Positions 21,935 through 29,212 of a stretch of DNA of 61,529 nucleotides are shown here, piece by piece. The translations under genes and the position numbers were made by a program. The stretch is taken from positions 1 to 61,529 of IMG/VR virus record IMGVR_UViG_3300030098_003632; one strand, written 5' to 3'. The notes beneath the pieces are model-generated. The model was not told the origin of the DNA and ran no database searches. It was given only the letters and a program-made list of their open reading frames with translations. The stretch's first letter is position 1. Every line of letters starts with the position of its first letter. Source of the DNA: a virus.

Positions 21935-22129
21935 ATGCCATTAGGTAAGAGAAAGAATGACAAGACTACTAGCAGTAGACTTGCTGACCGTAGAGACTAT
22001 AAAATAAATAAGATACAGGCTTCTACTGAGAAGGCCAAAGCTGTAGCCTCTAAAAGAAAATGGTTGGTGATATTGTTAGTCGTTGGTTTAGCGGTATTTA
22101 TATTCGTCAAATCGAAAGGAATCTTCTAA
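21935..22129 (+). CDS. Small single-span membrane protein, 64 aa
   Basis: A 64-residue protein with a basic N-terminal 42 residues and one hydrophobic segment (WLVILLVVGLAVFIFV, about 43-59) ending in a short basic tail. It is the first gene of a short rightward operon divergent from the recombination operon and overlaps the next small membrane gene by one base (TAATG). The pairing of two small membrane proteins suggests a holin/antiholin or other lysis-timing function, but there is no decisive motif. The ribosome site is weak (AAAAGG about eleven bases upstream). Confidence 0.65.
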   Translation: MPLGKRKNDKTTSSRLADRRDYKINKIQASTEKAKAVASKRKWLVILLVVGLAVFIFVKSKGIF

Positions 22130-22314
22130 TGAAGAAGTGGTATCAAAGTAAAACTATCTGGTTTAACGTAGGCACAATGGCTGTGTCTGGGCTTACTGCC
22201 CTGGCTGGCAGTGCTTACATAGAAGAAAACCCTATAGCTGCAGCATTGGTTACATGTGCTATTGCTATAGTCAATGTTTATCTTCGCAAGATTACTGAAG
22301 AAGGTATTGAGTAG
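22129..22314 (+). CDS. Holin-like two-span membrane protein, 61 aa
   Basis: I set the start at ATG 22129, six bases after AAAGGA; a longer reading would overlap the previous gene fully. The product begins MKKWYQSKTIWFN, then has two hydrophobic segments (about 13-30 and 36-52) and a charged tail, a layout common in small class II-like phage holins that begin with the same KSKT-W pattern. It is coupled to both neighbours by one-base or three-base overlaps. The role is probable release of lysis enzymes through the inner membrane. No endolysin gene is seen next to it. Confidence 0.65.
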   Translation: MKKWYQSKTIWFNVGTMAVSGLTALAGSAYIEENPIAAALVTCAIAIVNVYLRKITEEGIE

Positions 22315-23015
22315 TGGTAATAAAAAAAATATGTTCCTCTATTGCAGAGCCAGTGTCTTCTCCGATTGATGGGGTTGTTGCTGCAGCCGGCGGTGGTGGT
22401 GGTTCTACACTAACAATCGACCTTGCTACCAGCGATGCAAGCCCAAGCGCCAATTATGACACTGGTCAATTCACAAAGTTGTACACTTACAGTTCTTCTA
22501 TTCCAACAACCTTCGATAGTTACATTCAAAGGGGTTATGATAACCGTTCGATTGGAATTACGGTTTACTCACAGAATAGTTTCTATCATCCGTATTTTCG
22601 ATTCGTGAATGTGGGAGTCCCGCAAGGGTCAACTATAAGCAGTGCATATTTGATACTTGAAGTCCCTGCATCTCCTGCTGGTTACCCAGCATCAGACGGA
22701 GACACCTTCAGAATTGCTGGTTATGCTTCAGATGATGTATCACAGCCATCGACAGGTTCGGATGGTGCGATGAGTTTACACACATCAGCTAATGTAGATG
22801 GCTGGCAACTTCCCTCAGATGAGGGTATTACAACTTCTCCAGACATTAAAACGATTATTCAGGAAATCGTAGACCGTGCTGGTTGGTCTTCGGGGAACGA
22901 TATGATGTTTATGGTTTGGCAACCAACAGCACAATCATCCACTTATAAACGTTATTACAACACTGGAAAAGATTCAGATGACACAGCGCCACAGTTGCAA
23001 ATAACATACTCGTAA
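22314..23015 (+). CDS. Appendage-like protein sharing the spike module, 233 aa
   Basis: The protein starts with GTG overlapping the previous stop (TAGTG). After about 35 residues containing a GGGGG linker it consists of one beta-rich domain whose end, PDIKTIIQEIVDRAGWS, is nearly the same as in the appendage protein at 14012-15634; both also share a PQGSTIS/PQGATIT strand upstream. This module occurs in secreted or surface proteins and may bind carbohydrate, which is inference. A receptor-binding or capsid-decoration role is plausible. It is adjacent to holin-like and small virion-type genes. Confidence 0.72.
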   Translation: MVIKKICSSIAEPVSSPIDGVVAAAGGGGGSTLTIDLATSDASPSANYDTGQFTKLYTYSSSIPTTFDSYIQRGYDNRSIGITVYSQNSFYHPYFRFVNVGVPQGSTISSAYLILEVPASPAGYPASDGDTFRIAGYASDDVSQPSTGSDGAMSLHTSANVDGWQLPSDEGITTSPDIKTIIQEIVDRAGWSSGNDMMFMVWQPTAQSSTYKRYYNTGKDSDDTAPQLQITYS

Positions 23016-23028
23016 AAGGAATAAAAAC

Positions 23029-23355
23029 ATGGCGACGTTTAATAAAATTTTTACAAACCAAACGGCTAACGCTAGCACGGCAGCTCAAGACTGGGACGGT
23101 CGTAAGGGTCAGGTAGTAGCTAATGGTACATGGGATACATCTAACCTCCAGTTGGAAATGTCACCCGATGATGGAACAACTTGGATTTCTGTTGGAGATG
23201 AGGGGAAGCTAACTGATAGTGGTGCATTCACCTTCGATTTGAATCCGTGCAAGGTTCGTCTTACATTGGCAAGTGTTGGTAGTAGTACATCAATCAACGC
23301 TTGGATTAGTCAGGCTAATATAGGCTCTAATTATGACGGTCAAAGAAAAAGATAG
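23029..23355 (+). CDS. Small beta-rich virion-type protein, 108 aa
   Basis: A 108-residue soluble protein with the pattern LEMSPDDGTTWISV near the middle, a beta-hairpin type seen in small phage head or decoration-like proteins that follow other structural genes. It has one Cys and no membrane segment. AAAGGA precedes the ATG. It follows the 233-residue appendage-like gene by 13 bases. The exact role is unknown. Confidence 0.65.
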   Translation: MATFNKIFTNQTANASTAAQDWDGRKGQVVANGTWDTSNLQLEMSPDDGTTWISVGDEGKLTDSGAFTFDLNPCKVRLTLASVGSSTSINAWISQANIGSNYDGQRKR

Positions 23356-23366
23356 GTTCAGATTAA

Positions 23367-23618
23367 ATGAACTGGTTTACTGATAACGCACTAGGTATAT
23401 TTTCAATGGTAGGTTCAGGCATCGTCACACTATGCGGTATGGTGTGGTGGATGTCTGCTCTCTACTCTAAGGTTAACCAGATACACCAGCGAGTAGATGA
23501 ATTCGTTGGTGACTACAAGGAAGATCGCAAGAGGTTGTGGCAAGCCATTGATAGCATTGATGTTAGGCTAGACGACCACGACAAACGCATATCAATAGTA
23601 GAAACTAAGCTGGATTAG
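23367..23618 (+). CDS. Membrane-anchored coiled-coil protein, 83 aa
   Basis: An N-terminal hydrophobic segment (about 8-30, IFSMVGSGIVTLCGMVWWMSA) is followed by a charged coiled coil (about 33-83). This is the layout of XhlA-like or inner-membrane spanin-like lysis accessory proteins. It is the last gene of the short rightward operon that starts with two other small membrane proteins, which supports a lysis cassette. No Rz1-type lipoprotein is visible. The identification is therefore a structural analogy, not a family match. Confidence 0.6.
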   Translation: MNWFTDNALGIFSMVGSGIVTLCGMVWWMSALYSKVNQIHQRVDEFVGDYKEDRKRLWQAIDSIDVRLDDHDKRISIVETKLD

Positions 23619-24780: not shown

Positions 24781-25173
24781 CTAGAAGGGTGCTTCATCCA
24801 GAAGTCCCTGTGGTTCTTCTACCACCGGGCCAGGTGCAGCTTTCTGCATTTCTGCTTGTGCACCTCGACCAAACCCTTGGATAAGATTGCCTATCACCTT
24901 AACTTTAGATCGCTTCTGTCCGTCAGTTTCCCAACGCTCCTGCTTAAGCTCTCCTTCTACAAGGCAAGGACTACCTTTCTGCAGGTAGTCCCGTGCAAAT
25001 TTAGCACTCTGTTCCCATAGTGTTACGTCAATAAAGCTAACTTCATTGTCTTTACCGAAGTTTCTATTGACTGCTAGTACAATATCAGCAACAGTTTTTC
25101 CGGTGGTAGTTTCTCTAACTTCAGGATCTCTACATAGATTTCCTACTAAAGTTACACGATTATATTTAGCCAT
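24781..25173 (-). CDS. ssb: Single-stranded DNA-binding protein
   Basis: An OB-fold SSB of 130 residues. The N terminus reads YNRVTLVGNLCRDPEVR, then VSFIDVTLWEQSA and the LVEGELKQERWE strand, all in the usual order. The C-terminal tip is acidic and ends DEAPF, like the host-protein-recruiting DDDIPF tail. AAGGAG precedes the ATG. It protects single strands during phage replication and recombination and fits with the RecE-like/ERF pair. Confidence 0.96.
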   Translation of the reverse strand: MAKYNRVTLVGNLCRDPEVRETTTGKTVADIVLAVNRNFGKDNEVSFIDVTLWEQSAKFARDYLQKGSPCLVEGELKQERWETDGQKRSKVKVIGNLIQGFGRGAQAEMQKAAPGPVVEEPQGLLDEAPF

Positions 25174-25183
25174 GTTAGTCTCC

Positions 25184-26773
25184 TTATTTTATGACTATAG
25201 TGTGAATCCAATCTGGGACTGGATAGTAATCTCTAAGTTCTCTGGTTAGTACGGCTATTACAGGCATATCCATACTGTCTTCAGGCCAAGGTGTTTCCCC
25301 ATCCGTGAAGGCGAGTATTACATCGGGCTTGGATTGACGTTGTTCAAGTGATTCTGTAATCATTAAGCCAACGTCAGTTCCTCCTCCCCCTTTGACCTCT
25401 ATTTCATTAAAGCTCTTGGAAAGTTTTGTTGAGTGCTTAAACTCAGTATCTCCCATATATAAATCTAATTTTGTCCTTGAGTCGAAGTGATTAAATATAT
25501 TTTTAATCGCCCCTTTACATTTGGCAAAGTCTTCATCATCCATAGAGGCAGATGTATCTAGACATATTAATATGTCTGGCTTATAGCCTTCTCTTGATGG
25601 GAGCTTTATACCTGTAACGTCCGATCTTCTGTTGAATCTCCTGTATGTTCTTCTGTTTCCGTTAGAAGAACGTTCAGCAAATCTTTTGACAACTCTAAGA
25701 ATCTTTTGGTAAGGATCAGTCCTTACCGGCACGATTGTTTCTGCCCAACTAACCATATCTCCCCCGACATTGCTTCGGTTCTTATGGATTTGTTTGGCAA
25801 GATCTTCAATTACATAATCAATCTGATCTTGATTTAAGCCCAGGCCACCCTCGTCTGGGTCGGGTAGCACTGAGCTTAGATCTATTTGTATACTTCCTGC
25901 TCCGGGTTTTCCTGGATTGGGCCCATCCCACCGGAGTTCTCCATATTCATTGATGCTAATTGATTCGTCATCTGAAAGTGCATCTGTCGAAGGTGCTCGT
26001 CCATCGTCCTCATCGCTGCTTCTGTCCCGCTGTTGATCGACATTATCTGCATCGTTATTGTGTCCACTGCTCCCTTCAGTTGGTTCAGTTCCGCTTGAAG
26101 ATTCTGGACTATCTCCGTAGTGTTCATCAAGTTGGTCACTGTTGTCCTCAGTTCCCCCACTTTCTCCGCTAAATCCGATTCCAGATTCTCGAATCGCTCC
26201 CTCGTTGGCTTGTTGATTATTGCTCGTGGCATCGTCATTCTCCTTTAACCTTCTATAGTTTAGTTCTACTGGTAGATTCTTCTCGACTATGTGGATGAAC
26301 TCTTCGTCCCACCACTTCAAGTAGTCTGTAGTTATTACTACGCGACTCTTGTCGCTGTAGCTATATATCCTATCGGGACTTACTACAGGTAGTTCCCTTG
26401 CAAGTATGTCATTAACACATAAGTCTGCAGCTATATTCCATAGGTGCATTTGCTTTCGTGTTACTTCTTTACCTACTTCTTTCTCTAATCTTCTGTGATG
26501 GTTGTTGGTTAGGTGCAATAGCTCATGTAATATCACACCAGCTATCATCTCTTCCTTGTTGTCCTTTACAAACTTAGGATCGTAGGCCAACCTCCAATGC
26601 TTATCAACTCCCATTGTTCCTAAGCCATGTACTGGCACAGGTTTCATGGAAAAGATTGCATTCCTACTAAACTTCCAATGTCGTGCAGCTCTTAGCATTG
26701 CTTTACGCAAACTGTTGTCTTCACGGAATGTTATTCTACTGCCTGGCACTCTGCTTTTCAATGAGTTAGTCAT
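25184..26773 (-). CDS. DUF2201-type metallopeptidase / VWA protein
   Basis: The N-terminal domain carries HELLH (83-87) in the context ILHELLHLTNNHHRR, as in DUF2201 putative zinc metallopeptidases. Residues about 165-300 are a Ser/Asp/Glu/Gly-rich disordered linker. The C-terminal domain is a von Willebrand A-type fold with a complete metal site: DTSAS (406-410), T466 and D491. I chose ATG 26773 over the longer reading because a strong hairpin lies between the two candidate starts and AAGGGA precedes 26773. It follows a MoxR-type ATPase gene, the usual partner of VWA proteins. Its linker region also encodes a second protein in another frame. Confidence 0.88.
   Translation of the reverse strand: MTNSLKSRVPGSRITFREDNSLRKAMLRAARHWKFSRNAIFSMKPVPVHGLGTMGVDKHWRLAYDPKFVKDNKEEMIAGVILHELLHLTNNHHRRLEKEVGKEVTRKQMHLWNIAADLCVNDILARELPVVSPDRIYSYSDKSRVVITTDYLKWWDEEFIHIVEKNLPVELNYRRLKENDDATSNNQQANEGAIRESGIGFSGESGGTEDNSDQLDEHYGDSPESSSGTEPTEGSSGHNNDADNVDQQRDRSSDEDDGRAPSTDALSDDESISINEYGELRWDGPNPGKPGAGSIQIDLSSVLPDPDEGGLGLNQDQIDYVIEDLAKQIHKNRSNVGGDMVSWAETIVPVRTDPYQKILRVVKRFAERSSNGNRRTYRRFNRRSDVTGIKLPSREGYKPDILICLDTSASMDDEDFAKCKGAIKNIFNHFDSRTKLDLYMGDTEFKHSTKLSKSFNEIEVKGGGGTDVGLMITESLEQRQSKPDVILAFTDGETPWPEDSMDMPVIAVLTRELRDYYPVPDWIHTIVIK
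25882..26232 (-). CDS. Nested coiled-coil protein overprinted on the VWA gene
   Basis: A 116-residue reading frame lies wholly inside the metallopeptidase/VWA gene on the same strand in another frame. It begins MPRAIINKPTRERFENLE and has a regular heptad pattern for most of its length (L/V/I positions about 15-80), followed by a Met/Asn/Gln-rich tail. AAAGGAG lies seven bases upstream of ATG 26232; an earlier ATG at 26238 is too close. The region it covers corresponds to residues 181-297 of the VWA protein, exactly its low-complexity linker, which is what one expects if the new frame is under selection. The role is unknown; it could bind the VWA or ATPase partner. Confidence 0.75.
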   Translation of the reverse strand: MPRAIINKPTRERFENLESDLAEKVGELRTTVTNLMNTTEIVQNLQAELNQLKGAVDTITMQIMSINSGTEAAMRTMDEHLRQMHFQMTNQLASMNMENSGGMGPIQENPEQEVYK

Positions 26774-26809
26774 GATAATATCCCTTAAAGTCCCTATTAT
26801 TTCCCTTTC

Positions 26810-26838
26810 GGGGTGCATAGACACACTCCATGCACCCC
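26810..26838 (-). terminator. Strong hairpin between MoxR and VWA genes
   Basis: A perfect 9-bp inverted repeat GGGGTGCAT/ATGCACCCC with an 11-base loop lies between the ATPase stop and the likely VWA start. No T-run follows on the leftward strand, so it may be an mRNA-stability or partial-termination element adjusting the ratio of ATPase to VWA protein rather than a full terminator. Confidence 0.6.
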
Positions 26839-26849
26839 TCAGGGTACCG

Positions 26850-27971
26850 TTAGTCATTCAATCTAGATTCTTCCATCTCCCTAAGCTCTTGGTTAGCTTC
26901 AGGTACATACCCATCTGGCTTCATGTCCCATAGTTTAGCTTCAAGATTCCTTGCTAGGTCTGGGTATGTTCTGTAAACATTCCCCAAGAACTTTCTACCT
27001 GCCTCCCAACGTTCTTCCGTCAGGTTGTCACGCACTCTTCTGAGTACAGACTTGGCATAACTCATAGCTATTGGGAATTCCTCGGGTATTTCTACCTCTT
27101 GGGGATCCTTAAGGAGATCTTCTGGGTCAACAAAGTTCGTAACTTTAAGGAACTCATTGAACTCTGATCCAACATGTTCCCCTACGAATCCTTGTATTAT
27201 TCTAAGGGTAACTTCAGGTGAGGCTCCAACTGAGATTGCACCCCCAAGGGCATAAGATAAGTTAGTCCATGACCTTGGTGTAGGGAATGGATTACCTTTG
27301 GTATCCTCATCGTTCTCCATGCAGGCATACTCCTCCTTGGCGTATGTACTTTTGCCAAAGAGAAAGTCTACTATCTTCTTTGCGAAGAGTGGGGTAGACT
27401 CATGCCAGTCGTCCGGAACAACAGGTACTTCTGGTGCAGGGAAGTCAAACCCTCCTGATTCCATACCCTCTATCCATTTCTTGGTGTCCATCTTCCAGTC
27501 AACAATGCACATCCTATTAATCATAGGTTCTGCCAATGGATTTCCATTAGTGGCTTGATCCATCCTGTTACCTGCTGCAAACACCCAGCAATTTTCAGGT
27601 GGGTTATCCATCCATGTAAGTGCAGCTGCTTGGGTAGCCTCATTTACTGAGGTGAATTCATCAATTAACATGATTGAATTCTGCAGTCTGGCACGCACCA
27701 TTTCCTCCAGCTCAACCATCTTAATGACTTGGTGCACGTTACCTTTGATAACGATGTCCCTTTTGTCAGGATAACCTCCAACGTCTTCTGGTTGTCTGGC
27801 TGGTAAGGGTGTCCTAATCCAACGCCGTTCCCTAGCTTTCGCCAGGGTCTCTAAAGTTTTTGTTTTTCCTACTCCAGCTGGGCCGTATGCCATCGTTGGT
27901 ATGCCTACCTGGGGAGGAATTAAATATTCCCAGTTGATTTGGGATTCTCTTCTGGAATGATGCTTTGTCAT
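26850..27971 (-). CDS. MoxR-type AAA+ ATPase
   Basis: A 373-residue AAA+ protein with Walker A GPAGVGKT (30-37) and Walker B MLIDEF (101-106), followed by TWMDNPPEN and the sensor region VFAAGNRMDQATNG (about 130-143). This layout belongs to the MoxR branch, whose members work with VWA-domain partners to remodel or activate target proteins. Here the VWA-metallopeptidase gene follows directly and the unknown 310-residue gene precedes it by ten bases. TAGGAG precedes the ATG. The target in the infected cell is unknown. Confidence 0.88.
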   Translation of the reverse strand: MTKHHSRRESQINWEYLIPPQVGIPTMAYGPAGVGKTKTLETLAKARERRWIRTPLPARQPEDVGGYPDKRDIVIKGNVHQVIKMVELEEMVRARLQNSIMLIDEFTSVNEATQAAALTWMDNPPENCWVFAAGNRMDQATNGNPLAEPMINRMCIVDWKMDTKKWIEGMESGGFDFPAPEVPVVPDDWHESTPLFAKKIVDFLFGKSTYAKEEYACMENDEDTKGNPFPTPRSWTNLSYALGGAISVGASPEVTLRIIQGFVGEHVGSEFNEFLKVTNFVDPEDLLKDPQEVEIPEEFPIAMSYAKSVLRRVRDNLTEERWEAGRKFLGNVYRTYPDLARNLEAKLWDMKPDGYVPEANQELREMEESRLND

Positions 27972-27981
27972 TTTATTTCTC

Positions 27982-28914
27982 CTATAGTTCTATATCGTCA
28001 AATACGTCACACTCTTCTAGTACCTTATGCTCGTAGTCATAGACGTGAGCAATGCTTTCAGACTTATTAACTATCTGATTAAACTCCTTTAGATCTTCAA
28101 AGATGGGTTTATATATAGCCAAGTCTTTCCTATATTTTTCAGCCAGTGCCTTTACGGTACCGTCCTGAGAACTTTTATTTTCCAGGACATGCTGCATTGT
28201 TTTTATGTCGTTCTTTACCTGACTAAATAATGCTGAGACTCCTTCAGCGTCATGCTTTGGATGGAATACCATAAAGTCTGCCAGCTTAGCAATCTCATGG
28301 TACCCTGAGAACAACTCATCTGGGTCATGTATCCATAGAAGTTTAGGGCCCATCTCAACTGTCTTTTCAAATATCTCACCAAGTATTTCCGGGATGATGT
28401 TATTCATCTGGGCGGCGGAGTATTTATATTCTTCGTCAGGCCATATGTCATAGAAGAATTGCTTAAACATTGAGAGAGTGGTGTCGGTTGTTTGATTACC
28501 ATCCTTCATGTCCTGTGCAGTTAGATGGAAACGTGGCCGAGGCCTTCCATCTTCTGCTGTTGGATCAGATAATTCAACATCCACCCAGGCTAAGTCTTTA
28601 TAAACTTTCCTGCCGTTTATCTCCTTGGTTGCATAACCTATCCGCCACTTATCTCTGAAGACATCCTTGGCATATTTAGTCCATAGCCCTTCGACAAGCA
28701 GTTTATCTGACTTGTCTCCAGACCATTTCTTTAGCTTGGAAAATGCTTTGCTAAATGTATACTCCATATTCTTGAATGGATTTACCTTGGGAATTTCCAT
28801 AAATCTATCAAGGCTATTCTGTTGGAGTGCTTGCTCCACCAGATACTTCTCCGTCCTCTTGGCTTTCCACAGGACTATCGTCCCCATTATGTTGGTGCTT
28901 TTCCGTTCGGTCAT
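27982..28914 (-). CDS. Unknown 310-aa protein of the MoxR/VWA module
   Basis: Not recognised. A mixed alpha/beta, Lys/Asp/Phe-rich soluble protein without cysteine clusters or membrane segments. The C-terminal 90 residues are strongly helical and charged. It starts within the preceding gene (101-base overlap in another frame) with AAGGGA upstream, and is followed by the ATPase gene at ten bases, so it is cotranscribed with the MoxR/VWA pair. It may be a substrate or adaptor of the ATPase; that is inference from position. Confidence 0.78.
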   Translation of the reverse strand: MTERKSTNIMGTIVLWKAKRTEKYLVEQALQQNSLDRFMEIPKVNPFKNMEYTFSKAFSKLKKWSGDKSDKLLVEGLWTKYAKDVFRDKWRIGYATKEINGRKVYKDLAWVDVELSDPTAEDGRPRPRFHLTAQDMKDGNQTTDTTLSMFKQFFYDIWPDEEYKYSAAQMNNIIPEILGEIFEKTVEMGPKLLWIHDPDELFSGYHEIAKLADFMVFHPKHDAEGVSALFSQVKNDIKTMQHVLENKSSQDGTVKALAEKYRKDLAIYKPIFEDLKEFNQIVNKSESIAHVYDYEHKVLEECDVFDDIEL

Positions 28915-29212
28915 TTTGACTATCCCTTTCTAATGCTTCTTGAATTATTTCTGCTTGCTCATTCATCCTCAGGTAGAGCGTGCGTAAATCATTGACATCC
29001 AGAGGTCTGCTTCCAGTGATGTCGTCACCTGGCAGGTAAACTCCCTGCGACATTCCTACTATGTTGTGAAAGCATCCTGCTAACATAGATAGACATGTCA
29101 CTATTTTGTTTTCCTCCAGCTCCTCTGGTCTAAAGAATAATTTTGTTGTGTCTTTCTCTCCGTTCTCGTCCTCAGTTGTTACCCTGAGTACATAGATTGT
29201 TTCTTTATTCAT
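28814..29212 (-). CDS. Unknown 132-aa protein with disordered tail
   Basis: An N-terminal domain of about 90 residues (Leu/Glu/Asp-rich, one MLAGCFHN segment) is followed by a 40-residue disordered tail rich in Asp/Glu/Ser/Gly/His. The tail is the part that overlaps the start of the next gene in another frame. GGAGAG lies eight bases upstream of the ATG. It belongs to the same operon as the MoxR/VWA module. Family unknown. Confidence 0.7.
   Translation of the reverse strand: MNKETIYVLRVTTEDENGEKDTTKLFFRPEELEENKIVTCLSMLAGCFHNIVGMSQGVYLPGDDITGSRPLDVNDLRTLYLRMNEQAEIIQEALERDSQNDRTEKHQHNGDDSPVESQEDGEVSGGASTPTE

Follow-up and report, generated by a model that had tools for sequence, protein, structure and literature searches.

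The window (the whole stretch of viral DNA analyzed here, a linear virus record of 61.5 kb, or 61,529 nt) very probably harbors, at positions 25882-26232, a genuine protein-coding gene that is nested within, and was overprinted on, the linker-encoding part of a gene for a metallopeptidase-VWA protein, and whose product belongs to a family without any known relative. This judgment leans on the comparison of related sequences, in which the substitutions across the overlap follow the codon positions of the inner frame. The case would represent a clean example of gene birth in a disordered linker, since selection is clear in two clades, there is an internal start site, the direction of overprinting is clear and one gain is inferred. 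To our knowledge, tailed phages have few long genes nested on the same strand, and genes of this sort tend to be discarded by standard gene finders; the phage MoxR-VWA pair, in turn, is widespread and poorly understood, and the nested gene points to an overlooked component beside it.

The surroundings are those of a minus-strand early/replication module comprising genes for a MoxR-like ATPase, the metallopeptidase-VWA protein (hereafter the host gene and host protein) and an SSB, a small gene and a serine-recombinase-like gene, with the AAA ATPase gene directly adjoining that of the VWA protein. The features referred to throughout are as follows:

24781-25173, minus strand: single-strand DNA-binding protein (SSB; PF00436), the conserved downstream neighbor, gene order kept in relatives
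25184-26857, minus strand: host gene, with a DUF2201_N putative metallopeptidase domain, a disordered linker and a VWA domain (PF13203, PF09967, PF00092)
25544-25558, minus strand: VWA domain of the host protein, metal-site motif DTSAS (residues 434-438)
25882-26232, minus strand: putative nested gene, 116 aa plus stop, ATG start, +1 frame of the VWA gene (from the ORF list and relatives)
25966-26395, minus strand: linker of the host protein (residues 155-296), disordered in the AlphaFold2 model (pLDDT <50)
26240-26246, minus strand: Shine-Dalgarno-like sequence AAAGGAG, 7 nt ahead of the ATG of the nested gene (26232)
26501-26515, minus strand: metallopeptidase domain of the host protein, zinc-binding motif HELLH (residues 115-119)
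26850-27971, minus strand: MoxR-like AAA ATPase (PF00004, phrog_1297), the conserved upstream neighbor, gene order kept in relatives

The host ORF opens at 26857, and its relatives begin at the residue aligned with Met29 (26773), which is likely the true start; as the starts of the relatives align there, the apparent overlap between the VWA and MoxR genes in the window is probably not real. PHROGs and phage records label the VWA-DUF2201 family (phrog_1314) “HNH endonuclease”, while Pfam gives metallopeptidase and VWA domains, and the label is likely a misannotation. As to the phage itself, which belongs to a group of uncultured tailed phages, its portal is similar to the P22 type and its terminase to the T4-type N-terminal domain; a comparison of the portal with phages gave no match, that of the terminase gave one weak match (to an unclassified phage), the N4-like terminase and portal homologues that would mark a member of the Schitoviridae were not found, and a search for an isolated close relative returned none.

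The preliminary description, made from the window alone, had reported a 116-codon same-strand frame with AAAGGAG seven bases before its ATG, and precisely this was recovered at 25882-26232, the ORF being wholly internal to another same-strand ORF of a different frame and covering host residues 209-325; a second in-frame ATG, at 26238, stands just 1 nt from AAAGGAG. The frame was also said to lie exactly over the linker, which holds for the part encoding the predicted helix, whereas the last ~29 codons run over GxLxWxG, a short host motif (residues 306-312) that is conserved in the alignments and that the code for the nested tail overlaps.

A scan with the terminase yielded 26 related loci, and a profile scan supplied additional ones; single-sequence scans of viral contigs with the VWA, MoxR or nested protein returned no relatives. 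The VWA gene was present on four large contigs from the terminase scan, all four of which carry the nested frame (E 1e-11 to 1e-13). Altogether, the clade of the window comprises 11 loci with a VWA linker (the window, L040, L041, L042 and L044-L050; L043 is a duplicate of L042, and L047 and L050 are near-identical), whose host proteins are 29-40% identical to that of the window. Loss of the nested frame or its start in relatives had been named beforehand as an outcome that would speak against the gene; instead, the ORF is kept open in 11/11 of these loci, at the homologous place, in the +1 frame and with an ATG (at host residue 176-208), encoding 116-136 aa, and both frames are conserved as protein. 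Shine-Dalgarno sites (AAAGGA, AAGGAG, AGGAG or GGAG) precede the nested ATG in nearly all relatives and, judged from sequence, are weak only in the L040 group (L040, L041 and L044), so the expectation of a conserved start and ribosome site was borne out. The VWA proteins of L047 (363-1985), L048 (3890-5539) and L050 (4001-5623) have lost the HExxH zinc motif, MREILFLLHRY or MRILVHLFNRH standing where LHELLHLTNNH is found otherwise; the metallopeptidase domain is probably inactive in this branch, in which the nested gene is strongly conserved.

Evidence comes also from the pattern of substitutions. In a +1 overlap, host codon positions 1, 2 and 3 are nested positions 3, 1 and 2, which means that a region in which the host alone codes should change at host position 3, and a merely relaxed linker should change equally at all positions or be rich in position-3 changes. 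What is seen across the overlap is neither: the substitutions concentrate at host position 1, which is the wobble position of the nested frame, and spare host position 3 (nested position 2). For L042/L045, the counts at host positions 1, 2 and 3 are [10,2,0] in the overlap vs. [10,4,36] outside it; for L047/L048, [71,23,18] vs. [145,99,249]; and for the sum of four pairs, [134,53,42] vs. [225,153,436] (chi-square p 2e-22), with host position 1 exceeding position 3 in the overlap at p 2e-12. In a second clade (clade B, described further below), the overlap counts are [11,1,4] for L085/L165 and [13,14,6] for L166/L167, and immediately beyond the downstream end of the nested gene the linker is dominated by position 3 ([7,1,20] and [2,2,15], respectively). 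Over the six pairs of both clades, the overlap total is 158/68/52, set against 178/141/306 in control linkers without a nested gene from nine pairs of relatives (p 1.8e-19); some lineages recur among the control pairs, and the sites of any one gene are non-independent, so that these p-values are guides rather than exact values. Moreover, each pair shows a smaller difference in the nested protein than in the host residues it overlaps (0.305 vs. 0.686 for L047/L048). The codon-level selection test in relatives that the preliminary description had called for thus came out positive, and the comparison of host position 1 with host position 3 could be applied to other disordered linkers as well.

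A constraint on the nucleic acid itself (RNA structure, or a packaging or replication signal) that fixes host position 3 without any second protein might be suspected from the close pairs, in which this position is almost frozen (0-1 changes), but such a constraint would leave host position 1 unfreed, whereas 71 of the 112 changes between L047 and L048 fall there; nor would it preserve, for one and the same frame, an ATG together with a Shine-Dalgarno site and an amphipathic helix, and the effect ends in clade B where the nested frame ends, which renders this explanation scarcely credible.

The possibility that the frame is open by chance deserves a more careful treatment: the linker avoids T at the second codon position, contains few +1 stops, and has a composition that mimics a coiled coil. 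An open +1 frame is not very improbable here, as T is rare (9%) at host codon position 2 in this Ser/Asp/Glu/Gly-rich linker; in shuffles of synonymous host codons, the frame stays open in 0.5% of the trials for the window (P ~0.005) and in 3.5-75% of them for the relatives, with the maximum in L048, and long +1 ORFs that look like chance are seen in many GC-rich relatives. Openness by itself would hence be weak evidence and no proof of a gene, and it is the comparison of relatives that settles the matter: six pairs from two clades show a substitution pattern unlike that of the control linkers, which contradicts a chance frame, the nested residues are better conserved than the host ones, and the conserved ATG and Shine-Dalgarno site count against it too. 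The regular heptad pattern noticed at the outset is real, albeit modest in the window (P 0.010 upon residue shuffling and 0.016 upon host-synonymous shuffling) and far stronger in L047/L048, where 0 of 2000 shuffles were as strong; it is significant, beyond what host-synonymous shuffles give, in the clade of the window, and weak in most of the short nested proteins of clade B. Taken with the substitution data, an origin of the frame by chance alone seems highly improbable.

As for the product, AlphaFold2, supplied with nine nested sequences, predicts a single 92-residue helix (residues 8-99, mean pLDDT 83) followed by a disordered Met/Asn/Gln/Pro-rich tail, and the code for the helix sits mostly over host disorder (host residues 155-296); the description of a coiled-coil gene overprinted on a disordered linker is upheld, and the product may be an oligomeric coiled coil. 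Family searches with the nested protein gave weak sub-threshold coiled-coil matches and none above the cut-off; these matches were rejected as homology. No phage relative of the nested protein was found when one was searched for, nor is any homologue detectable outside the group.

The conservation of the Shine-Dalgarno site and ATG is the reason for proposing an internal start: ribosomes would initiate at these signals within the VWA-metallopeptidase message, independently of the host start, and translate 116 codons of the +1 frame, which would yield a small coiled-coil protein ending in a flexible tail. A programmed frameshift out of the VWA frame would instead produce a metallopeptidase-coil fusion and no free small protein, and a +1 frame immediately after a domain would fit such an event; a conserved ATG with a correctly spaced Shine-Dalgarno site, located right where the conserved frame begins, is, however, what independent initiation needs, and we deem frameshifting very improbable. 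Under the preferred reading of a separately initiated gene, the pre-existing disordered linker would have been overprinted, in what was probably a single event, in the common ancestor of a phage branch, after which purifying selection would keep the nested gene while the linker drifts underneath.

Nested +1 helical genes are seen in two more branches beyond the clade of the window. Clade B (L084/L085, L165, L166 and L167) has a nested +1 gene of 63-67 aa with a Shine-Dalgarno site, and L086, on a 64 kb virus record whose terminase is 33% identical, has a helical nested +1 frame of 122 aa preceded by AGGAG (the selection test covers pairs from the other two groups, L086 having no close relative). 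L165, L166 and L167 lie on contigs of Planctomycetota/Pirellulaceae MAGs; the occurrence of VWA genes of this phage type on such contigs is either a hint at the hosts or a binning artefact. In a tree of the VWA proteins (a quick one with open forks, restricted to columns in which 70% or more of the rows are filled and largely without the linker), the 12 rows carrying the nested gene cluster together (support 86), requiring one change, and the gene is absent from 42 of the 54 rows, absence being judged from ORF listings. The nested proteins of different branches show no detectable similarity (hhalign probability of 0.5% for A3 vs. L084), and the likely single gain is therefore argued from position, frame and tree rather than from the nested-protein sequence. 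The VWA genes of G103 and G269 are without the nested gene, and a genome scan with A1 gave no match. Nested ORFs in Schitoviridae, L058, L087, L091 and many GC-rich relatives were considered as genes and rejected for having other positions, no coil, an arginine-rich product or no suitable start. The idea that a long linker occurs only alongside the nested gene was likewise dropped, as some relatives without the gene have long linkers too.

The preliminary description took the gene for a recently evolved one, and this finds no support: with clade members whose host proteins are just 29-40% identical to that of the window, and a distribution that fits one gain shared with two more distant branches, the nested gene appears to be old. 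The direction of the overprinting seems clear as well. In the one genome scored for codon usage, the host frame in the overlap scores 0.028, among the phage genes (0.002 to 0.097), and the nested frame scores -0.097, among the +1 frames of the phage's genes, i.e., the outer frame has the codon usage of the genome and the inner one is without it; this, along with the relatives whose linkers are disordered and carry no nested gene, indicates that the linker is the older of the two and that the nested gene arose on it by overprinting.

Phage genes nested in another gene of the same strand are already known, as exemplified by E in D of PhiX174 (reviewed in PMC8227390) and Rz1 in Rz of lambda (PMC6139136). 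PhiX174 E shares with the present case a complete internal same-strand overlap whose outer frame is identified as the ancestral one by its codon usage, whereas it is a lysis protein of a small phage, and here the phage is a tailed one of ~60 kb, with a disordered linker as the outer region. The embedded spanin genes, lambda Rz/Rz1 among them (PMC6139136, PMC5295617), likewise have a small shifted-frame gene inside another on the same strand, with the two lambda products acting together; those, however, are envelope lysis proteins, unlike a helical protein encoded in the gene of a MoxR partner within an early/replication module. MoxR-VWA pairs are themselves known from RavA-ViaA (PMC10585395, PMC9489729) and the Rubisco activases with a VWA partner (PMC4660213), and phage 0305phi8-36 has MoxR subunits (PMC2147016); as here, a MoxR gene has a partner gene nearby, the partner being a VWA protein in the bacterial cases. 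The Schitoviridae have the same gene pair with homologous domains (an ATPase and a VWA-like protein; phrog_1297 and phrog_1314), but their VWA-like proteins are 385-409 aa long, with a short linker and without a matching nested gene. In the literature searched, no report of a gene or third protein nested in the VWA partner of a MoxR protein was found.

What the product does can be suggested from its location. Tentatively, and with a probability a little short of even, it may be a helical oligomer that serves as partner or regulator of the MoxR ATPase and the VWA protein, a pair encoded on the same message, and that acts in the early/replication module. A rather unlikely, more specific version makes the coil an obligate third subunit of a phage MoxR-VWA machine, encoded in the linker and made in step with the VWA protein, with the coding need dictating the linker sequence; if true, this would be a chaperone-like system with an adaptor hidden inside the gene of its partner. 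The chances are about even that the gene is real but its product unrelated to VWA/MoxR (e.g., a separate early protein that targets the host or replication), the linker serving as the most permissive site: disordered linkers tolerate a second code, and the nested gene is retained even where the host protein lost HExxH, being better conserved in L047/L048 than the host's own domains. Against such independence stand the message and operon shared with MoxR and VWA in all branches with both, and the precedent of overlapping genes with cooperating products, lambda Rz/Rz1.

Two further observations concern the rest of the window. Early genes 28814-29212 and 27982-28914 overlap by ~100 nt at their ends in different frames, and their counterparts in L040 and L044 overlap as well. 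At ~21998-22410 and 23016-23590, the DNA is 82-93% identical to that of L045 and L046 although the VWA proteins are only about one-third identical, making a recent DNA exchange between these phages likely.
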